Below are positions 4,493-48,052 of a stretch of DNA of 64,000 nt, in pieces. The notes below the pieces were generated by a model. It was given only the letters and a program-made list of their open reading frames with translations. It made no database searches and was not told the origin of the DNA. Position 1 is the first letter of the stretch; every line of letters starts with the position of its first letter. Source of the DNA: Demequina zhanjiangensis. GTDB taxonomy: Bacteria; Actinomycetota; Actinomycetes; Actinomycetales; Demequinaceae. A program made the position numbers and the translations under genes. The stretch covers positions 62,001 to 126,000 of the forward strand of contig NZ_JAUHPV010000003.1 in assembly GCF_030418315.1 (NCBI RefSeq), read 5' to 3'.

Positions 4493-5325
4493 GCACCCTG
4501 CGCATCGAGCACCGCACCCGCTTCACCTATGCGAGCGAGATCGTCAGCTCGTACAACGAGGCCCGACTCACCCCCGCCTGGCTCCCACGTCAGCGCGTGC
4601 TCGACTCCAAGGTGGAGATCGAGCCCGCCACGTGGCGCTCCACCTACCGCGACTACTGGGAGACGGACGTGGTCGCGTTCGAGGTGCTGCAGCCGCACAA
4701 GGCGCTCACCGTCGTCGGCACCTCGATCGTGGAGGTGTCGCCCCTGCGCCAGCGCGATGAGCGCGTCGGCTGGTCCGAGATCCAGGGGCCGCGCTTCCAG
4801 GATCTGCTGTGCGAGTACCTGGGCAACACCGAGACCACGGAGCCGACGGACGAGCTCAAGCAGATCGCGGAGGACGCCGCCGCCAGGCTCAGTCCCGACC
4901 TCACGGCCCGCGCCATCTGTGACGTGCTCCACGAGCGCATGGACTACGTGCCGGGATCGACCACGGTGCATACGCCCGCGATCGATGCGTGGGAGGCGAA
5001 CTCGGGCGTCTGCCAAGACTTCGCGCACCTCGCGATCGGCGCGCTGCGCCACGTCGGCATCCCCGCCCGCTACGTGTCCGGCTATCTGCACCCCAAGCGC
5101 GACGCTGAGATCGGTGAGTCCGTCGCAGGCGAGTCCCACGCGTGGATCGAGTGGTGGACCGGCGACTGGCACGGCTTCGACCCCACGAACGACCGCGAGG
5201 TGGCGGACCACCACGTCGTTGTGGGTCGCGGCCGCGAGTACCGCGATGTGCCGCCGCTCACCGGCGTCGTCGCGGGGGAGACGACGTCGCTGGACGTGCG
5301 TGTCACCGTCACGCAGACCGCCTGA
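4489..5325 (+). CDS. Transglutaminase-like cysteine protease family protein
   Basis: 278-aa cytoplasmic transglutaminase-fold protein. An N-terminal beta region (STLRIEHRTRFTYASEIVSS) typical of this subfamily precedes the catalytic core. The catalytic Cys is in ANSGVCQDFAHLAIGALRH, the His in GESHAWIEWW and the Asp in WHGFDPTND, so the triad is complete. Homologues may cleave or form amide bonds and are always coded with alpha-E and ATP-grasp partners, as here. The GTG start overlaps the preceding stop (GTGA). The gene ends 57 nt before leuS, which has its own promoter. Confidence 0.92.
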   Translation: MSTLRIEHRTRFTYASEIVSSYNEARLTPAWLPRQRVLDSKVEIEPATWRSTYRDYWETDVVAFEVLQPHKALTVVGTSIVEVSPLRQRDERVGWSEIQGPRFQDLLCEYLGNTETTEPTDELKQIAEDAAARLSPDLTARAICDVLHERMDYVPGSTTVHTPAIDAWEANSGVCQDFAHLAIGALRHVGIPARYVSGYLHPKRDAEIGESVAGESHAWIEWWTGDWHGFDPTNDREVADHHVVVGRGREYRDVPPLTGVVAGETTSLDVRVTVTQTA

Positions 5326-39000: not shown

Positions 39001-39844
39001 CACCGACACCACCGGCGAGCAGACCACCTCCTGGTACGGATCGTCGCTCGGAGGCGACCTCGGAATCACCATCACCAACGGCATCGCGCAGATCCAACTG
39101 TCCGACATCCACGGCGACATCGCACTACCCCTCACAGTCGCTTCGGACGACACGATCGAGGCCATCGGCGGCTACTCCGACTTCGACGAATACGGCAACC
39201 CACTCACCGGGATGACCGACCCCGACACCGGAGCCATCACCTACGGATGGATCGGCGCCAAGGAACGCGCCACCGACACCACCGGACTCATGCTCATGGG
39301 AGTCCGCCTGTACAACCCCGTCACCGGACAATTCACCTCCGTCGACCCCGTCCCCGGCGGCAACACCACCGCCTACACCTACCCCCAAGACCCCATCAAC
39401 AAATACGACACCTCAGGCAAATCCTGGTGGTCCAAGATCAAGAAGGGCGCAAAGGCGGTCTGGAAGGCCACCGGAACTGCCTCGAAATGGTTGACCGATA
39501 GCAAATGGGGCAAGCGAATTGGGGCGGCGTGTTCACTCGCGTGGGGCATCGTCGGCAACGTGTGCAACGGCGTATATGCGGCCGCTTACGCGCGTCAGGG
39601 GAGGTGGAAGGAAGCGGCCGTCACGGCGGTCGCAGCAGTTGCCGGGGGTGTTGCAGGAAAGCTGGCCAAGACTGCCGTTCTGCGGGGCGCTGCAGGCTTT
39701 CGAGGATCGTTCTCGCGTGCAATCGTGCGGAATGGGATCGGCAGCCGAAGGTACATGACGCGCTACGATCGAACGTTTAGGAGCGTTGCGTGGAAGGCTG
39801 ACTTAGTTGTCGGCTACAGCGTCAGCGAGAGGGTCAACTGGTAG
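33095..39844 (+). CDS. Secreted RHS/YD-repeat protein with variable C-terminal tip
   Basis: About 2249 aa from the GTG chosen at 33095; the start is uncertain and could lie anywhere from 32975 to about 33200. The N-terminus has hydrophobic stretches (AVRTAAITVV-like region, VRTAAITVVAAFAALGV) that end before AEGADEVDW, fitting a Sec signal. A DNRLRE domain follows (about residues 365-530). An RHS-type N-terminal module starts near 865 (VALWTGEFNTAVTDLEVPAY, SLSRSYNSFAGG). Many YD repeats follow (YDSLGRIVE, YDLWGRTVTYTDT, YDMAGRLVEVTDR). The RHS-associated core ends RLYNPVTGQFTSVDP (about 2071) and DPINKYDTSGK (about 2099-2109). The last 140 residues are a distinct tip with Lys/Trp-rich and Ala/Gly-rich hydrophobic parts that I do not recognise. 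Such proteins encapsulate a C-terminal toxin. Confidence 0.88.
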   Translation: MSDAHARSWGLWGWIAVAFSLSSAYINGGWTRGVRTAAITVVAAFAALGVSEGGAFAAEGADEVDWTEQGAWNGLTAPDAISASMLAVLKDEAVEDLSQRTETSQTFALPDGLWRSEMFAGPEWVATGEDPTTEEGWEALDTELVSWSDGSYRPGAHPANLIFSGASKGHTALVTGTDAEGGEFTLWWDGTLPDPIAADDAIRYVDVEPGIDLVFYVTATGYEQFFVAKTAAALDRAETLSLQFDSEDVDLTTDGETLTGTSEDGEELVQVSEVLAWDADNDALRTVPVAQMAPEPEVGASASAPPSPSASPSGSPSLADVNALPVEVEVPAQFDVAGDAGTVSIDADDVPFDSGDVFPVVIDPSVNLSLSFDTYLSTAWDTDRSTQTDLLIGTWDSGTSKYRSYINANVMPILGTEVISAELKLWNFHSWSCTARSWEVWSTSLTSSSTRWDTKPSFYDRYATVSTTKGYSSSCADGWVSADVTTLAANWAKGTTTGKGIGIKASSETDNTYWKKFNSGNAATNKPVLKVVYNRYPSKPSTLQVNGVTPASGTTYYINDTTPILSAKVSDPDGGLVKARFTIMQGSTTFKSLASGSSVKSGLRSEYESPALTNDKTYSVSAVANDGSVDSKSANEPTWTIVVDTDPPGVTAIDTTGVTEDQWIETPPANASATLTATDAVSFEYTIDGGATQTVTAVAGTASIALPVTKGGHQVWARAIDRAGNPGSEDEAEYGVGSVGISAPNANYTTTGNAPVVATAPKGTEGSVERTVYARVAGTDVDVDYTDGTGVNTDWIEVEQLDPVAAGVDPKVEYTWAASASVPAGKERVPNRIDVQVCFTYLDGDDNPLTTRCTWQDDDTHTSVIVIPHAFGGGFPTATAGPGQVALWTGEFNTAVTDLEVPAYTGTMSLSRSYNSFAGGTETSVFGPGWTASFEGSDLGQAGLTVVDSTGDDGVLAFQDVDGSYLLYVQPGGGNTAQMNGTYEPFDDDTAALGFTVSITGQGTDAVLTMVDDLGVTTTWEHLEAGKWVAKSITEPAASGKTTFSHDEQGRITQILAPVPEGVTCSATPVEAGCRYLTIDYYTATNAATNAYAGRVSEATFHTWDTAAEAMDDTVVARYGYNSDGYLTSVTDPRSGLNVVYGYGDLTDAGVPTLTSVTPAGLAAWGISYGTSSQGNDSVLAVTREGATDNAATTVVSRFVYGLDATAMPSGSPDVAAAQHAWGQSRTPTRGFAVFAQGDDPGSSDPATVNAAQWLDGDFQFTDDEGYTVNTASYGAGAWQYTADEYDDGGRIVRSLDPAATAYLIDQSALIDGQTVPAAEVNAVATLTNYNATDITATTDLTWDDGSESGATITAGTVLVPAGTLVTDTWAPAEDGEDGQRTRIHTQYTYDEDAPNGGINPRTGQKFNLVTTVTETEAAATDGGWGIVSPDIAGETLLSRTETGYDPIDAATATSDTSGWILSAATTTTTVMDSPADNITTLTRYDSLGRIVETRQPGSDGTDAGTELTVYYTAGANTDDAACGNTPQWAGLTCVIKTAEADPAVPEARTTAYSMLLAAKTTVETLDAVTRTTDTTYTADGRILTSSTATTGLADSQPLETTTYVYDETTGLLTDTHAVDATDTITSTVSTGYDLWGRTVTYTDTDGAVTTTTYDSHGRTGTVDDGVQRTEYTYDGTDAAGNDEHRGLPTAMTITSDTFDETTGTYPTYTFTAAFDAGGNMTVQTMPGNLTQTTTYTRTGHTIGLAYSGVDTAGETVPLIAWSQQLDLYGRVVAESTPSAGVSPEAVSEYNRTYSYDMAGRLVEVTDRTAGIGASVNTDPEAGDVTACATRAYTFDKRGNRLARTTGISGTDGACVSAGTGETDAWVYDDADRIQYAANTTDAYVYDALGRQTLIPAADTPAGAAAGDLQIGYYDNDLAASLTQNGVTTSYSLDALQRRATATTTSSSGTTTLVRHYTDSSDNPAWAISTDTTGEQTTSWYGSSLGGDLGITITNGIAQIQLSDIHGDIALPLTVASDDTIEAIGGYSDFDEYGNPLTGMTDPDTGAITYGWIGAKERATDTTGLMLMGVRLYNPVTGQFTSVDPVPGGNTTAYTYPQDPINKYDTSGKSWWSKIKKGAKAVWKATGTASKWLTDSKWGKRIGAACSLAWGIVGNVCNGVYAAAYARQGRWKEAAVTAVAAVAGGVAGKLAKTAVLRGAAGFRGSFSRAIVRNGIGSRRYMTRYDRTFRSVAWKADLVVGYSVSERVNW

Positions 39845-39851
39845 GACTAGG

Positions 39852-40319
39852 GTGATTTCAATTCTACGAAGTGCTCACCTCGTGCGCACCGGCCCAATCG
39901 GTTGGGCGTTTGTGGCGATGCTCGCAATGATCGGGCTCGCCTGCGCGGGCGGAGTGATCGAAACCGATGCCTGGCCCGGCTGGTTCGTCGTTGCGATTGG
40001 ATGCTCGGCTGCGGTGATCGGACGTGGCGCGGTCGGGGGTGTTTGGCGTGACCGCAGCGGTCAACTTGTCGTCCGTGACTGGCTTCGTACGCGGAAGTAT
40101 GACGTGGAATCTGATCTAAGCATCGCGTACATTCCCTACGACGGATTCGTGAACACATACCAGGACTCACGGGTGTGGGCGACATTGACGTTCGCAAGCT
40201 CAGGCCGGCGCGGCCGTCCCTGCAGGTTGACAGTGGCTTCATACGCAACGACCAAGCGTCGCGTCCGCATGCTCAGAAGCCTCCTCGAGCTCCCCTCGGG
40301 ACCCGGGCGCCTGGACTGA
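39852..40319 (+). CDS. Two-helix membrane protein, candidate immunity to the RHS tip
   Basis: 155 aa. It begins at a GTG 7 nt after the RHS stop with AGGACTAGGG as ribosome-binding sequence, so the two are co-transcribed. Two membrane helices lie at about residues 16-38 (WAFVAMLAMIGLACAGGVI) and 42-62 (WFVVAIGCSAAVIG). The cytoplasmic part (SGQLVVRDWLRTRKYDVESD ... LTFASSGRRG) looks like a small PH-like beta domain. Position directly behind a polymorphic-toxin-like gene is where immunity genes sit, but no known immunity family was recognised. Base composition is lower in GC than the housekeeping genes around it. Confidence 0.6.
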   Translation: MISILRSAHLVRTGPIGWAFVAMLAMIGLACAGGVIETDAWPGWFVVAIGCSAAVIGRGAVGGVWRDRSGQLVVRDWLRTRKYDVESDLSIAYIPYDGFVNTYQDSRVWATLTFASSGRRGRPCRLTVASYATTKRRVRMLRSLLELPSGPGRLD

Positions 40320-40566
40320 GGCGAGGAGTTTCCTTCGACGTGAACTGGCCCGAGTCTCGTTCCGCCTGGTCGACAAGGGTGGAACCCATGACTCGTTGCA
40401 CCCCGGAGATGCGTGAGCGCGCGCATCGACGAAACGCCGATAATTGAGAATATGTCCGCCTCGCAGCGCTTGCGGGCACGGGGCAGCGAGCCCCCCCAGC
40501 CGCCCGAAGCACTGAGGTCCGGGAGCGCACCCATCGATGACGGGGTAGCGCTCCGCATCCAGTGCG
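40320..40566. other. Non-coding stretch upstream of the leuA leader
   Basis: About 250 nt between the island and the leuA regulatory leader. It contains an AT-rich patch near 40438-40460 (GATAATTGAGAATATG). I see no gene; frames open here are short and lack coding character. Confidence 0.4.
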
Positions 40567-40572
40567 CTATGG
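40567..40572 (+). promoter_or_regulatory. -10 box of the leuA leader (TATGGT)
   Basis: TATGGT ends 7 nt before the ATG of the Leu-rich leader peptide, so the leader peptide itself would be translated from a leaderless message. Confidence 0.5.
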
Positions 40573-40579
40573 TGGCCGT

Positions 40580-40605
40580 ATGCGTGCACGCTCGCTGCTT
40601 CTTAG

Positions 40606-40624
<19 letters not shown>
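40580..40624 (+). CDS. leuA leader peptide (leucine attenuation)
   Basis: 14-codon ORF, MRARSLLLSCRDEA, with three consecutive Leu codons (CTG CTT CTT, 40595-40603). It lies 72 nt upstream of leuA. Its last six codons overlap the left arm of a 14-bp hairpin. Leu-rich leader peptides before leuA are a known actinobacterial attenuation device: ribosome stalling at the Leu codons under leucine shortage should keep the hairpin open. CTT is a rare codon in this GC-rich genome, which should sharpen the response. Confidence 0.75.
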
Positions 40625-42457
<1,833 letters not shown>

Positions 42458-42520
42458 CGCTGCGGCGTCCCGGCCGAGCCACGCCAGCCTGTCGACCACA
42501 GGGGACGCGGGGTCGGGACC

Positions 42521-42567
42521 GGACGCGCCGGGGGTGACCATCGACCATGGTGGAACCCGGCGCGTCC
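42521..42567 (+). terminator. Terminator-like hairpin of leuA
   Basis: 12-bp perfect stem (42521-42532 with 42556-42567), 64 nt after the leuA stop, followed by a T-containing pyrimidine stretch. Confidence 0.65.
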
Positions 42568-42632
42568 TCATTCCTCTTCTCCGCTCGTCGCGCTGCGCGC
42601 CACCTCCCGCGGCGCCCGCCGGCCTGAAGCGC

Positions 42633-42690
42633 CCTGGCATCGCATGAGTGCCGATATCGGCATCAAGACCGGCACCCATGCGATGCCAGG
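42633..42690. repeat. Dispersed palindromic element, copy D
   Basis: 22-bp arms 42633-42654 and 42669-42690 with two mismatches and a 14-nt loop, same sequence family as the copies near 20.7, 21.8 and 22.6 kb. The flanks GCG and CGC extend the pairing. Confidence 0.8.
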
Positions 42691-42710
42691 GCGCACGGCG
42701 CGCAGCAGAA

Positions 42711-42747
42711 CGCCCCGTCGACCCTCAAGAAGAGGGCCGACGGGGCG
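42711..42747 (-). terminator. Terminator hairpin of the DUF4386 gene
   Basis: 16-bp stem with one mismatch (42711-42726 with 42732-42747) and a 5-nt loop, 14 nt past the DUF4386 stop on the minus strand. Confidence 0.7.
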
Positions 42748-42761
42748 CTGTCGTCTCCGCG

Positions 42762-43505
42762 TCAGGCGGCGACGAGCTCCGGCTCCTTGCCGGGGAGGGT
42801 GGCCACCGTCCGCGGTGCGCGGACCAGGAGCCAGATCGTGAACCACACCTCGGTGACGATGGATGCCGTGGCGACGATCGCGAGGAACGCGCCGCCGAAG
42901 TCGGCGTAGTTGGCCATCAGGAGGTGGGCGAAGGTGTCGGCGATGTAGGCGCCGCCCGCGATCCACAGGCCGATGCCGAGCGGGCGCGGTCCGATGCGCG
43001 AGGCGACAAGGATGCGGCCCAGGACGATCAGGTGCAGGCCGAACGCCACGAGCGCGAGCAGCCACGTGATGTCGAAGGCCTCCATGGCGAGCCCGGTCCA
43101 CGCCTCCCTCTGGCCTGCGTCGAGCCCGGCCACGGCGTCGCCGCCGACCGAGAGCTGAAGCGCGAGGACCATGAAGGTGATCGCCGGGATGAACGCCACC
43201 GTGTAGGCGACGCGCAGCCACGCGGCGAGGAGCGAGCGGCGCTCACCGGTGCCCCGCAGCAGGACGTGGAGCGCCCAGGCGATGCCGATGTCGATCATGG
43301 CGATCGCCGCGAAGCCTGCGATCCCGAAGCGGAAGGTGGTCGCGTTCTCCGCGATGTTGCTCATGGTCATGGCCGGGTCGTCGGGGATGACGAGCTGGTT
43401 GCGGACCAGGAAGTTGGCGCTCATCGCGAGCAGCACGATGGCGATGTAGCCGACGCCGGCGAGGCGCGCGGCCGTGGCGGGGGCGAGTTCGTTGCGAGTG
43501 GTCAT
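42762..43505 (-). CDS. DUF4386 family membrane protein
   Basis: 247 aa with about six membrane segments. RLAGVGYIAIVLLAMSANFL at the N-terminus, FRFGIAGFAAIAMIDIGIAW and FDITWLLALVAFGLHLIVLG match the DUF4386 family, whose function is unknown. It lies 61 nt downstream of the dehydrogenase gene on the same strand and so should be under the same TetR-controlled promoter. It is closed by a hairpin. Confidence 0.85.
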   Translation of the reverse strand: MTTRNELAPATAARLAGVGYIAIVLLAMSANFLVRNQLVIPDDPAMTMSNIAENATTFRFGIAGFAAIAMIDIGIAWALHVLLRGTGERRSLLAAWLRVAYTVAFIPAITFMVLALQLSVGGDAVAGLDAGQREAWTGLAMEAFDITWLLALVAFGLHLIVLGRILVASRIGPRPLGIGLWIAGGAYIADTFAHLLMANYADFGGAFLAIVATASIVTEVWFTIWLLVRAPRTVATLPGKEPELVAA

Positions 43506-43566
43506 GAGAGGTTCTCCAGTGTGGGGACGATGCTGTGGTCTGTAGGTCTTGTGCCTGCTGTGGCGG

Positions 43567-44652
43567 TCAGTGGGCGTCGCGGACGGTGACGACGGCCTTG
43601 CCGGCGACGCGGCCGTCGGCCAGGTCGGAGACGGCGTCCGACGCGCGGTCGAGCGGGTAGGTGCGGTGGATGGCGGCGCGCACGTCTCCCTGCTCGACGA
43701 GCGCGGCGAGACGGTTGAGGCGCACCGCGGTGGTGGCGGACATGAGGCCCATGAGGCGCTGCTTGCTGAACAGCGAGACGAGCGGCGCGACGAGCGAGCG
43801 GCCGGAGCCGCCGATCAGGGAGTCGCCGCCCTCGCCGCCGACGATCACGAGCGCGCCGGTGGGGGAGAGGATGCGGCGCAGCCGACGCAGCGGGGTGAGG
43901 CCGCCGGTGTCGATGATGACGTCGAACTCCTCCTGAAGCGTGGTGACGTCCGTGGTGCGGTAGTCGAGGACGCGCTCGGCGCCGAGCTCCGTCACCAGGT
44001 CGGCCTTCGCTGCTGACGCGACACCGGTGACGTGGGCGCCTGCCGCGACGGCGATCTGCACGGCGTACGAGCCGACGCCGCCTGAGGCACCGAGGACGAG
44101 CACGCGCTGGCCGGCCTCGACCTGCGCAGAGTCCACGACCGCCTGCATGGCGGTGACGCCGGAGACGGGCAGCGCGCTCGCCTCGACCATCGAGGTGCGT
44201 GTGGGCTTCGCCGCGAGGCGCTCCTCCTTGGCGACTGCGAACTCGGCGAACGTGCCGTCGGCGCTGCCGAAGACCCCGTCGCCGACGGCGAAGCGCGTGA
44301 CGCCCGCACCGATGGCCTTGACGACGCCCGCGACGTCCGAGCCCTGGACGGGCTGCTTGGGCCGACGGAGGCCGAAGCCGATCATGCGGATGACGAACGG
44401 ACGGCCGGTGGCCAGGTGCCACACGCCGCGGTCGACGCCGGCGGCGTGGACCTCGAGCAGGACCTCGCCCTCACCGGGCTGGGGCATCGGGACGGTGTCG
44501 AGGTGGATCTGCTCGGGACCGGTGTAGGCGCGCTGGACTGCGGCGCGCATGGTCGCGGTCGGAGTGCGGTCGGTGGAGCCGTGCGAGGCGGATGCCGCGG
44601 CGGCGATCGATGCGGCCGAGGTGGCTGCGGTGGCGGTGGTGCTGGCGTTCAT
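43567..44652 (-). CDS. NAD(P)-dependent alcohol dehydrogenase / quinone-oxidoreductase-like MDR enzyme
   Basis: 361-aa medium-chain dehydrogenase. An Ala/Ser/Thr-rich N-terminal stretch (about 30 residues) precedes the GroES-like domain (TMRAAVQRAYTGPEQIHLDT, GSDVAGVVKAIGAGVTRFAV) and the Rossmann fold (VLVLGASGGVGSYAVQIAVA). The zinc-ligand cysteines of classical alcohol dehydrogenases are not seen (AGVDRGVWHLATG instead), so a zinc-independent reductase is more likely. The ATG at 44652 follows a strong GGGGAGGGAAC site. It is transcribed from a promoter with a TetR operator between -35 and -10. Confidence 0.87.
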   Translation of the reverse strand: MNASTTATAATSAASIAAAASASHGSTDRTPTATMRAAVQRAYTGPEQIHLDTVPMPQPGEGEVLLEVHAAGVDRGVWHLATGRPFVIRMIGFGLRRPKQPVQGSDVAGVVKAIGAGVTRFAVGDGVFGSADGTFAEFAVAKEERLAAKPTRTSMVEASALPVSGVTAMQAVVDSAQVEAGQRVLVLGASGGVGSYAVQIAVAAGAHVTGVASAAKADLVTELGAERVLDYRTTDVTTLQEEFDVIIDTGGLTPLRRLRRILSPTGALVIVGGEGGDSLIGGSGRSLVAPLVSLFSKQRLMGLMSATTAVRLNRLAALVEQGDVRAAIHRTYPLDRASDAVSDLADGRVAGKAVVTVRDAH

Positions 44653-44679
44653 GGTTCCCTCCCCGGGATCTGGTGTTGT

Positions 44680-44692
44680 CGTACTTAGTACG
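44680..44692. promoter_or_regulatory. TetR operator copy 1
   Basis: CGTACTTAGTACG, just downstream of the predicted start of the dehydrogenase transcript. Confidence 0.75.
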
Positions 44693-44705
44693 TCTGCCAC
44701 GATGA

Positions 44706-44734
44706 ACGCTAGGCGTACTTAGTACGATAGTCAA
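44706..44734 (-). promoter_or_regulatory. Promoter of the dehydrogenase-DUF4386 operon
   Basis: On the minus strand TTGACT (44729-44734), 17-bp spacer, TAGCGT (44706-44711). Near-consensus and overlapped by operator copy 2. Confidence 0.75.
44714..44726. promoter_or_regulatory. TetR operator copy 2
   Basis: CGTACTTAGTACG, lying exactly between the -35 and -10 of the minus-strand promoter. Confidence 0.8.
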
Positions 44735-44769
44735 GCCGAATCGCAGAAATAGACATTCTGCCAGGGGTG

Positions 44770-44798
44770 TTGACAGTCGTACTTAGTACGTCTAGCCT
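44770..44798 (+). promoter_or_regulatory. Promoter of the small membrane protein-tetR side
   Basis: TTGACA (44770-44775), 17-bp spacer, TAGCCT (44793-44798). Consensus -35; overlapped by operator copy 3. Confidence 0.78.
44778..44790. promoter_or_regulatory. TetR operator copy 3
   Basis: CGTACTTAGTACG between the -35 and -10 of the plus-strand promoter, mirroring copy 2. Confidence 0.8.
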
Positions 44799-44804
44799 CG
44801 ATGT

Positions 44805-44817
44805 CGTACTAAGTACC
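44805..44817. promoter_or_regulatory. TetR operator copy 4
   Basis: CGTACTAAGTACC, at the predicted start point of the plus-strand transcript, mirroring copy 1. Confidence 0.75.
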
Positions 44818-44838
44818 ACTCACTGAAGGAGAACGCAC

Positions 44839-45003
44839 ATGTCCAGCACCGCCACCCAGTCCATCGCCGCCGCTCCCGCGCAGAAGAAGGAGTACCCCTG
44901 GTACGCGATCCCCGCGATCCTCTCCATGCTGATGCTCAGCTCGGGCGGGATGGTCGCTCTCCTCGGATACGGCATCGCCGCGATGTCCTCCGCCACGTAC
45001 TGA
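44839..45003 (+). CDS. 54-aa single-pass membrane protein under TetR control
   Basis: Short gene with GAAGGAG 7 nt before its ATG and a strong repressible promoter. The peptide starts MSSTATQSIAAAPAQKKEYP, followed by a hydrophobic segment (WYAIPAILSMLMLSSGGMVA, continuing LLGYGIAAM) and ends SSATY. It is the first gene after the plus-strand promoter and precedes the TetR gene by 106 nt. No known family is recognised. A toxin-like, transporter-associated or stress small protein are all possible. The regulation argues that it is a real gene. Confidence 0.75.
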   Translation: MSSTATQSIAAAPAQKKEYPWYAIPAILSMLMLSSGGMVALLGYGIAAMSSATY

Positions 45004-45109
45004 GCGGGCCGGCTGCCGTCCGACACGCACTCGACCGACGGCAGCCGCCGCCCCTCCATCTGTGAGACTTGATCAGATCCACCGCCCGCGACCGACCGAA
45101 GGAGCCGTC

Positions 45110-45781
45110 ATGGCCGCCGACCCAGCGCCCCGCGCGAAGCTGTCCAAGGAGCGCATCATCGATGCGGCCATGGAGCTCGCAGATCGGGACGGCGTCGAGG
45201 CGCTCACCATGCGCGCGCTCGCGTCGGAGCTCGGCAGCAAGCCCATGACGCTCTACCACCACGTCGACGGCAAGGAGACGCTGCTCGATCTCATGGTCGA
45301 GCGAGTGTTCTCCGAGATGGCGCTCCCGCCCGAGGACCTCGAGTGGCGTGAGGCGATCCGCACGCGCTGCCGCTCCGCGCGCACCGTCCTGGTGAAGCAT
45401 CCCTGGGCCGTGCCACTGCTTGAATCGAGGAGGTCGCCGGGGCCAGAGCTGCTCCGGCATCATGAGGCGATGCTCGCCACGCTCGACCGCGGCGGGCTGC
45501 CGCTCCCGTTCATGGCCCACGGCTACGCGATCCTCGACAGCTACGTCTACGGATTCGCCATCGAGGAGGCCAGCCTGCCCGGCCAGGGGGAGCAGGAGGG
45601 GCTCGCGGAGGTGGCCGAGGAGATCGCGCACGTCTTCGCGTCCGGCGAGTACCCGCAGATGACGAGGCTTGCGATGGAGCACGTCGCGCAACCCGACTAC
45701 TCGTTCGGGGCGTCGTTCGACGTGGGGCTCGACATGATCCTCGACGGGCTCGAGGATGCCGTCGCCTCACCTTCAGAGTAG
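45110..45781 (+). CDS. TetR/AcrR family repressor
   Basis: 223 aa. The N-terminal helix-turn-helix reads LSKERIIDAAMELADRDGVE and LTMRALASELGSKPMTLYHH, the TetR signature. The ligand-binding part (about residues 75-220) resembles the TetR_C domains of antibiotic or xenobiotic sensors. GAAGGAG lies 6 nt before the ATG at 45110. It most probably binds the four 13-bp palindromes in the divergent promoter region upstream and so controls itself, the 54-aa protein, the dehydrogenase and the DUF4386 protein. The inducer is unknown. Confidence 0.9.
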   Translation: MAADPAPRAKLSKERIIDAAMELADRDGVEALTMRALASELGSKPMTLYHHVDGKETLLDLMVERVFSEMALPPEDLEWREAIRTRCRSARTVLVKHPWAVPLLESRRSPGPELLRHHEAMLATLDRGGLPLPFMAHGYAILDSYVYGFAIEEASLPGQGEQEGLAEVAEEIAHVFASGEYPQMTRLAMEHVAQPDYSFGASFDVGLDMILDGLEDAVASPSE

Positions 45782-45789
45782 CCGCCGTA

Positions 45790-45812
45790 GGGGGACTTGC
45801 CGCAAGGCCCCC
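45790..45812. promoter_or_regulatory. Rifamycin-associated element (RAE) upstream of helR
   Basis: 23-bp palindrome with 11-bp arms (one mismatch). Its central 19-mer, GGGACTTGCCGCAAGGCCC at 45792-45810, differs at two positions from the RAE I recall as GGGGCTTGCGGCAAGGCCC. RAEs sit upstream of actinobacterial rifamycin-resistance genes, including helR. Here it is 66 nt before the helR start. Confidence 0.8.
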
Positions 45813-45877
45813 GTCCGGAGGGACAATCGCATGCTCCCGCCGCCCGACGGGATGCCGCCAAGACCCCCGGAGCGTAC

Positions 45878-48052
45878 GTGTCAGCACCGATCTTCGACCT
45901 CGAGTCCCATCCTGCTCACAAGGCCGACCCCGCTGCCGTCGAGGCTGACGAAGCCCACCTTGTGAAGGTGCGCGACGCGCTCGACTGGCATGTCGCGGAC
46001 TTGCGGTCGCGTCTCGCCGCCGAGTTCGAGCAGGGTGGAGGCGCATGGCAGGGCGCCGTCGAGCGCGAGCAGACGGTGCAGTACCTGGGGCGTCGTCTCC
46101 GCGCGCTCGAGCGGTACGGCGCCGAGCTGTGCCTCGGGCGCTTCACGACCGACGACGGTGGCGCCGTCTACATCGGCCGCCTGGGCCTGACCGATGCCCA
46201 GGGTGCCCGCCTTCTCTACGACTGGCGGTCGGGCGCGGCCGAACCGTTCTTCGGCGCGACGGCCGCGCACCCCATGGGGGTGGTGACCCGGCGTCGCTTC
46301 CGGTGGAGGGGCGGCCGCATCGTCGACCACTGGGACGAGGCCGTCAACGGCACTGCCGTCGCGGACGACGCGGCTCTCGACGACGATTCGGCGCTCCTCG
46401 CCTCACTGGGCGAGAGCCGCACGACGCGGATGCGCGACGTCCTTGCGACCATCCAGTCGGATCAGGACGCCATCGTCAGGGCAGACTCCAGCGGAGTCCT
46501 CGTCGTCGACGGCGGGCCCGGCACGGGCAAGACCGTGGTCGCTCTGCACCGCGCCGCCTTCCTCAACTACTCCGACGCGCGCCTCAGGGCGCAGGGCGGC
46601 AAGGTGCTGGTGGTCGGCCCGCATCGGCCGTACCTCGAGTTCATCGCCGACGTGCTGCCCAGCCTCGGCGAGGAGTCGGTCCAGACGTGCACCTACAGGG
46701 ACCTGGTGGTCGAGGGTGCCGACGCGGTGCCGGAGGAGCAGGAGGCCGTGCGGCTCAAGGCGGACCTGGACCTCGCGATCGACGCTGCAGTGCGCCTCTA
46801 CGAGGAGCCGCCGACGGATTCGCTCGTGGTCGACGCAGGGGAGACGGAGGTGCGGATCGTCGCCCCCGACTGGGCCGAGGCCTTCGAGGCCCCCACGGGG
46901 GAGCTGCCCCACAACGCTGCGCGCGAGGAGGTGTGGACCGCCCTGCTCGACATCGTCGCGCGCGCGGTGCTCGGAGAGGACCTCGACGATCACGAGGACG
47001 CCGACGAGTTCGACGCCTACGGGCTCTCGGTCACGAGCCGTGCCGCGGAGATCAGGCGGGCTGCGGGTCGCGATCAGGGTCTGCGGGACGCGCTCGGGAA
47101 AGCGTGGCCGATCCTCGACCCGCAGGAGGTCGTCGGTGACCTCCTCTCGGTGCCCGCCTATCTGCGCATGTGCGCGCCCTGGCTCACTCCGGACCAGGTC
47201 GCGTCCCTCCAGCGTGACGAACCGGCGCGGTGGACCGACGGAGACCTGCCCGTGCTCGATGCGGCACGTGCGCGCATCGGCGACCCCCACGAGCCCGCGC
47301 GCAAGGCACGTCAGCGCGCCGCGCGCGCCGCCGAGCGTGCCCGCATGGACGACGTCGTGGCGGACCTCGTCGATCAGGACGACTCCGAGATGGGCGTGAT
47401 GTCGATGCTTCGCGGCCAGGACCTGATGAGCGTGCTCGACACTGACGAGGGTGGGCCAGGCCTCGGCGACCTCTCCGGACCTTTCGCGCACGTCATCGTG
47501 GACGAGGCGCAGGAGCTCACCGACGGTCAGTGGCGCAGCCTCATGCGGCGATGCCCGTCGGGAAGCTTCACCGTGGTCGGCGATCGTGCCCAGGCGCGTG
47601 CCGGCTTCCCCGAGGCCTGGGAGGACAGGCTTTCCCGCGTCGGCCTCACGAAGGTGCGGCGTGTGCCGCTCACCGTGAACTACCGCACGCCCGAGGAGGT
47701 GATGGCGGAGGCTGCCCCCGTGATCCAAGCGGTGCTGCCCGACGCGAACGTCCCCGTCTCGGTGCGTGCCGGTGGGCATCCGGTCGTGCACGGCTCCCGC
47801 GCTGACCTCGACGGAATCGTCGACGGCTGGCTGCAGGAGAACTCGAGGGGGGTGGCGTGCGTCATCGGCGACCCCGCCTACGCGCCCAGGCCCCGGGTCA
47901 GCTCGCTGAGCCCCGCGCTCGCGAAGGGCCTGGAGTTCGACCTGGTGGTGCTCGTGGATCCCGCCGCCTTCGGGGACGACGTCGCGGGTGCTGTCGACAG
48001 GTACGTCGCGATGACCCGCAGCACCAGCCGGCTCGTCGTGCTCGACGCCTGA
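45878..48052 (+). CDS. helR: HelR-like RNA polymerase recycling ATPase (HelD family)
   Basis: 724-aa UvrD/Rep-related ATPase that binds RNA polymerase. The N-terminus [20 protein letters not shown] leads into a coiled-coil arm (about residues 20-80) expected to enter the polymerase channels. Walker A is DGGPGTGKT (residues 211-219). [20 protein letters not shown] (Walker B), [12 protein letters not shown] and [17 protein letters not shown] mark the helicase core. HelR displaces rifamycin from RNA polymerase in Streptomyces. The RAE upstream strongly supports the HelR subtype over general HelD. The GTG start has GGAG 5 nt upstream. Confidence 0.85.

Follow-up and report, generated by a model that had tools for sequence, protein, structure and literature searches.

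The window analysed here is a stretch of 64,000 nucleotides of the Demequina zhanjiangensis genome, in which a gene for a TetR-family regulator is divergent from a gene for an MDR-superfamily oxidoreductase and a downstream gene for a DUF4386 membrane protein. Four operator-like 13-bp palindromes and two back-to-back promoter-like sequences occupy the region between them, and on the right-hand side a small open reading frame and an RNA hairpin precede the regulator gene (Table 1).

Table 1. Positions in the window of the genes, promoter-like sequences and candidate operators of the locus
Feature	Positions	Strand	Remarks
DUF4386 membrane protein, 247 aa	42762..43505	-	Same direction as the MDR gene and downstream of it
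MDR-superfamily oxidoreductase, 361 aa	43567..44652	-	Matches general MDR domains
Operator O2-left	44680..44692	+	Exact CGTACTTAGTACG; 3' of the -10 of the left (minus-strand) promoter
Left promoter, MDR/DUF4386 genes	44706..44734	-	TTGACT-N17-TAGCGT; -35 at 44734-44729, -10 at 44711-44706; by consensus only
Operator O1-left	44714..44726	+	Exact CGTACTTAGTACG; within the 17-bp spacer of the left promoter
Right promoter, small ORF and probably tetR	44770..44798	+	TTGACA-N17-TAGCCT; -35 at 44770-44775, -10 at 44793-44798; by consensus only
Operator O1-right	44778..44790	+	Exact CGTACTTAGTACG; within the 17-bp spacer of the right promoter
Operator O2-right	44805..44817	-	CGTACTAAGTACC, which is GGTACTTAGTACG on the minus strand; 1 mismatch, reversed orientation
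Small protein, 54 aa, one hydrophobic stretch	44839..45003	+	Conserved ORF by codon differences
RNA hairpin between small ORF and tetR	45006..45053	+	-31.1 kcal/mol, z -4.2; may act as terminator or attenuator
TetR-family regulator, 223 aa	45110..45781	+	ATG 45110 best start, GTG 45062 alternative; TetR_N + TetR_C_1

The oxidoreductase contains no cysteine and thus lacks the cysteines that are the usual zinc ligands in MDR oxidoreductases; its best NCBIfam model, the PIG3-type quinone oxidoreductase TIGR02824, scored 152.3 bits, below the cut-off of 296.8. A structural model of the DUF4386 protein (pLDDT 77.9, 7 close sequences) gave no Foldseek match at E values up to 0.001, and PADLOC returned no match for the three target proteins tested. 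Directly after tetR, at 45797-48052, lies a gene for a UvrD/AAA-like helicase with weak GajB-type PADLOC matches (best 29 bits); among the 30 clustered loci a similar gene was seen only in L060.

An earlier note on this DNA had described the intergenic region as a mirror-symmetric TetR divergon with four identical operators. Both promoter-like sequences are present as claimed, and in both an operator occupies the 17-bp spacer and another follows the -10. Only three of the operators are identical, however, the fourth being reversed and changed at one base. The symmetry is inexact: the spacings from left to right are 34, 64 and 27 bp, so that outer and inner operators are 34 bp apart on the left but 27 bp apart on the other side, and the right-hand promoter is followed first not by tetR but by the 54-codon ORF, which the earlier note had missed. 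The region has the organization of a divergon, in which palindromic operators overlap divergent promoters (assigned by consensus) that adjoin the regulator gene. In addition, a short stretch like TTTACCAG (in the window TTCTGCCAG, 44735-44769) was seen by eye to recur a few bases before the right -35 in the clade that has four operators.

The sites stand out from their surroundings. The window holds 12 matches to the operator pattern at up to 3 mismatches, 8 of which are the four operators counted on both strands, compared to 4.1 expected, and none of 100 shuffles reached 12. Across the 3.13-Mb genome no site with 0 or 1 mismatch was found outside the 138-bp region, and three further places have 2 mismatches. 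At this looser threshold the pattern occurs at 7 places per strand and its backwards control at 33, and matches of this kind are therefore uninformative; the CGTACNNNGTACG pattern gave 5 against 6 for its control. The two other CGTACNNNGTACG sites of the genome were rejected as members of the set: their centres differ, one lies within an ORF, and neither was tied to a TetR. A genome full of unrelated sites had been named beforehand as the result that would speak against the operator assignment, and such sites were not found in the organism's own genome.

The placement of the operators within the promoters recurs well beyond the window. From 36 loci examined, one of which (L088) is without any pair, 49 operator pairs were drawn, with the second operator 25-35 bp beyond the first. 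In 47 of the 49, a TTG element and a TAnnnT element separated by 16, 17 or 18 bp flank the first operator, O1, and the spacer measures exactly 17 bp in 37 of these 47; a random control of 10,800 places gave this geometry 5 times, with the best of 32 placements chosen for pairs and control alike.

The regulator itself belongs to the TetR_C_1 branch of the TetR family. Its N-terminal helix-turn-helix matches PF00440 (E 3.2e-10, 40.1 bits, cut-off 24) and its C-terminal ligand domain PF02909, or TetR_C_1 (E 5.8e-23, 81.8 bits, cut-off 21). The AlphaFold model, based on a shallow alignment, has a mean pLDDT of 83.7 and the all-helical TetR fold, and its structural neighbours include ActR (Z 19.9), SimR (Z 18.4) and the tetracycline repressors (about 16-17). 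SimR is the closest solved structure by sequence (E 1e-24). Assignment as the tetracycline repressor TetR itself (NF010319) was rejected at 71.2 bits against a cut-off of 265. An efflux system of the TetR/TetA or SimR/SimX type was likewise rejected, since the genes opposite the regulator encode the oxidoreductase and the DUF4386 protein and no efflux pump.

The position of O1 between -35 and -10, together with the model of the regulator, supports repression by steric hindrance, and from the sequence data we infer binding, repression, autoregulation and an inducer as follows. Judging from TetR and SimR, one dimer would be expected on each site. A dimer on O1 would exclude RNA polymerase, and another at O2, close to where transcription is expected to begin, would reinforce this exclusion. 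The left pair would shut off the oxidoreductase and DUF4386 genes, and the right pair the 54-residue membrane peptide and, by read-through, tetR, resulting in negative autoregulation. Hence the probable targets of the switch are the enzyme, both membrane proteins and tetR. That both sides would be very tightly repressed, as the earlier note proposed, is a prediction. A small molecule bound at the C-terminal domain would release the sites. As a guess by analogy, the inducer may be hydrophobic and resemble a quinone or a polyketide, given that ActR, SimR and PamR2 are among the closest structures and that the enzyme is similar to quinone oxidoreductases. Actinorhodin is a quinone, and ActR, according to the title of its structure entry, was solved with this compound. 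The mechanism is an ordinary one, an on/off switch that is well conserved.

Autoregulation within the clade of the window is less certain than repression of the promoter-proximal genes because the hairpin may separate tetR from the right promoter. The ORF in between behaves as a protein gene: it has a ribosome-site-like AAGGAG, and over its last 39 codons in 15 pairwise comparisons among 6 clade members there are 151 synonymous and 45 non-synonymous codon differences, with 173 differences at third positions and 32 and 30 at the others. The right pair might then control the peptide only, with tetR expressed mostly from a promoter of its own behind the hairpin and with little autoregulation in this clade. 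In all six loci with four operators, the 80 nt after the small ORF fold at -23 to -46 kcal/mol (the shuffle test that gave the z value in Table 1 was made for the window only), followed by a conserved stretch like ATCTGTGACACTTGATCAG. This stretch, at about 45058-45080 between hairpin and tetR and also present in L060-L065, is perhaps a tetR promoter. However, the window hairpin is followed by no T-run and no clear promoter was seen behind it, the O1-right promoter faces tetR directly in L060, where the small ORF is missing, and a single pair stands directly before tetR in most loci outside the clade. Separate expression of tetR is judged less likely than not.

The four-operator layout is a local variant of a simpler one. 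It occurs at 6 loci, all in one Demequina clade, and for this clade the nearly symmetric design put forward earlier stands; as a general description it does not, the usual layout being a single operator pair between divergent genes. In most loci outside the clade, one pair separates tetR from the opposite genes, usually MDR. The target set of the pair varies among loci: L082 and L084 have a gene of some 145 codons between the pair and the MDR or DUF4386 gene, and in L060 the pair faces the DUF4386 gene directly, no MDR relative being found there at E 1e-60, and the fourth operator is missing along with the small ORF. A midpoint-rooted tree of the regulators (36 rows, one per locus) joins the six four-operator loci and L060 in one clade with 100/100 support. 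Two second matches were left out of the tree, one in G074 (L187, with no operator in its 3.6-kb stretch) and one in G355 (L188, 33% identity). Support for the six alone is weak (79/52), consistent with a loss in L060. Because the one-pair layout is present in outlying families of this midpoint-rooted tree, it is taken as the older.

A possible source of the second pair is seen in relatives. At eight loci (L069-L072, L075-L077 and L079), tetR and the small ORF are separated by about 3 to 4.6 kb; here the ORF is divergent from leuA and has an operator pair of its own, whose sites are 33-35 bp apart compared to 27-28 bp in the four-operator clade. Most simply, the mirror arose by late addition of the small-ORF unit with its own pair beside tetR; a joint move of ORF and operators is putative.

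The spacing between the two pairs raises the question of their independence. The inner distance is 63 bp in five and 64 bp in one of the six four-operator loci, about six helical turns, and dimers on the sites might touch or form a loop, coupling the two promoters. The six loci belong to one close clade, however, in which a constant spacing may reflect descent, the two-operator relatives manage without this arrangement, and TetR and SimR each bind DNA as one dimer (PMC4150764, excerpt). Cooperation across the region is considered improbable.

The small ORF also occurs under what appears to be a different regulator. It is encoded in 18 of 47 genomes of the family, 14 of which have a TetR-type pair upstream of it, at two different chromosomal places (in G009 with a 2-mismatch site). 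In the other four (G034, G035, G040 and G042; loci L130-L133), an inverted repeat GGTTAGTT-N8-AACTAACC is found at the corresponding place, and G035 and G040 yielded no TetR at E 1e-40. At up to 3 mismatches this repeat is present in 23 of 44 genomes of the genus, at 25 places, 20 of which were examined as loci: 17 (L164-L180) have a GntR gene with an ABC transporter gene behind it, and the other 3 are those of the small ORF. By its position, the repeat is probably the operator of that GntR regulator. The membrane peptide may thus be a stress effector captured by two unrelated repressors, a tentative reading that we put at somewhat less than even odds. If true, the four-operator divergon would derive from a regulon member that settled beside its own repressor. 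The operator-like sites before the ORF place a conserved small membrane protein in two candidate regulons.

A separate feature was noticed at leuA in the window. Before this gene (40697), a probable leu leader peptide ORF at 40580-40624 reads ATG CGT GCA CGC TCG CTG CTT CTT AGC TGC CGC GAC GAG GCC TAG, with three consecutive Leu codons, and is overlapped by a possible hairpin CCGCGACGAGG/CCTCGTCGCGG at 40609-40647. From their sequence, ORF and hairpin are a probable attenuator. The element is also seen before leuA in several relatives; a search of 39500-46000, which covers this element, against Rfam gave no match at the gathering score.

Genome comparisons bear on whether the motif belongs to this TetR at all. 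Orthologs of the regulator are found in 28 of the 47 family genomes, in 30 copies, and an operator-like pair (at most 2 mismatches per site, 25-35 bp apart) lies at 29 of these 30 loci; the sole locus without a pair, L088 in G023, was kept in the count, and a third site in L076, 42 bp off, was not taken as a pair. In the order (Demequina is placed in Micrococcales, Actinomycetes), the exact pair pattern was found in 24 of 396 genomes. For the 34 Demequina genomes in that draw, the exact pair is present in 21 of 22 genomes with this TetR and in 0 of 12 without it (Fisher p 2.4e-8, a guide only, since the genomes are related and the value overstates their independence); in the remaining genome with the TetR, G018, one site is perfect and the other has 2 mismatches. 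Each of the 35 exact pairs in the 396 genomes has a TetR ortholog no more than 4.7 kb away, and for 27 of them the distance is at most 0.4 kb.

The association extends beyond the genus. Three genomes of the order outside Demequina have the pair, and all encode a 50-56% identical TetR; the regulator gene adjoins the operator in G074 and G355 and is about 2 kb off in G057. In 394 genomes of the class, four matches were obtained: the window's own and three outside its order. Each of these three is flanked by a 55-58% identical TetR and, on the opposite side, by a DUF4386 gene, with an MDR gene between in two of the three. All six matches outside the genus thus carry a 50-58% identical TetR, accompanied by an MDR gene in 5 of 6 cases or by a DUF4386 gene, and backwards-pattern pair controls gave 0 in both searches. 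This TetR subgroup occurs in at least five families of Actinomycetes. As a side observation, in G057 the operator pair and tetR are separated by a 652-codon ORF, FAD amine oxidase-like by eye (L113:3248-5206), which occupies the position of the small ORF in the window, and a further single CGTACTAAGTACG is seen at 5208 before tetR.

A contig scan with a single TetR query gave 22 loci, 7 of them full-length orthologs, all from Demequina; the other 15 were partial matches with 31-44% identity and were left out. Thirteen viral contig stretches carry the operator-pair pattern and were set aside as chance matches because none encodes a TetR, MDR or DUF4386 relative and their G+C content is 0.34-0.50.

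These comparisons leave little room for the motif being owned by a regulator encoded elsewhere, with the neighbouring TetR as a bystander. The one locus in 30 that lacks a pair would fit this idea; absence of the exact pair from every genus genome without this TetR, its restriction to a single locus in the organism's own genome and its presence beside such a TetR in further families and orders make it highly improbable. Also highly improbable is that the TetR is an activator or a dual regulator at one of the promoters: a few family members, such as AtrA, do activate (PMC3511530, excerpt), but the operators lie between -35 and -10 and after -10, where they would block polymerase. Co-occurrence and gene order across several families strongly support the earlier claim of a TetR divergon in which the regulator's own operator is present in several copies. 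We predict that the TetR_C_1-type repressor encoded at 45110-45781 has the 13-bp palindrome as its operator, and assign the explanation by TetR repression as a whole a probability of about 0.87; it draws on the sites, their spacing, the promoter-like hexamers, gene order, conservation and co-occurrence.

In the open literature searched, the matches listed contain just the 9-base TACTTAGTA and neither CGTACTTAGTACG, its complement nor either of two 11-base cores; they are probably chance matches. The same literature gave no report on DUF4386, alone or with TetR, nothing relevant on a Demequina TetR regulon (the sole match concerned LuxR in Archaea), and no match about SimR for GTACGAA/TTCGTAC with TetR. 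This TetR subgroup with its candidate operator is apparently undescribed, though of a known kind, and the precise candidate operator predicts control of MDR-DUF4386 gene pairs.

Among known systems, SimR-simX of Streptomyces antibioticus resembles the present locus in its divergent intergenic region, and SimR is the nearest relative of the regulator by sequence and the second by structure. A half-site of SimR reportedly also contains CGTAC. The simR-simX intergenic region is 138 bp long (PMC3511530, excerpt) and contains two operators (PMC5812520, excerpt); TetR binds 15 bp and SimR 17 bp, each as a single dimer (PMC4150764, excerpt). SimR, however, controls an MFS efflux pump from these two operators, whereas here an oxidoreductase, a DUF4386 protein and a small peptide face two pairs. 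ActR of Streptomyces coelicolor, the best structural neighbour (Z 19.9, rmsd 3.0, 188 aligned residues, 29% identity), differs in its operators, such as GAACGGGCCACCGTTT, and in its efflux targets (PMC3511530, excerpt).

In SCO7222-SCO7223 of S. coelicolor, a TetR-family regulator is divergent from a monooxygenase (EC 1) gene, footprints three perfect repeats TGGAACGNCGTTCCA before this oxidoreductase gene and acts as its repressor (PMC3511530, excerpt); the system differs from the present locus in having three sites, another sequence and one target. TetR-tetA shares the TetR_C_1 domain and has two 15-bp palindromes between divergent genes (PMC3511530, excerpt), but includes an efflux gene, of which the present locus has none. 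More generally, 67% of the TetR-family genes in three streptomycetes are divergent, and short intergenic regions predict repression by such regulators (PMC3511530, excerpt). Compared with these systems, the locus fits the regular type of TetR_C_1 divergon, except that its operators are more numerous and that no efflux pump is present.
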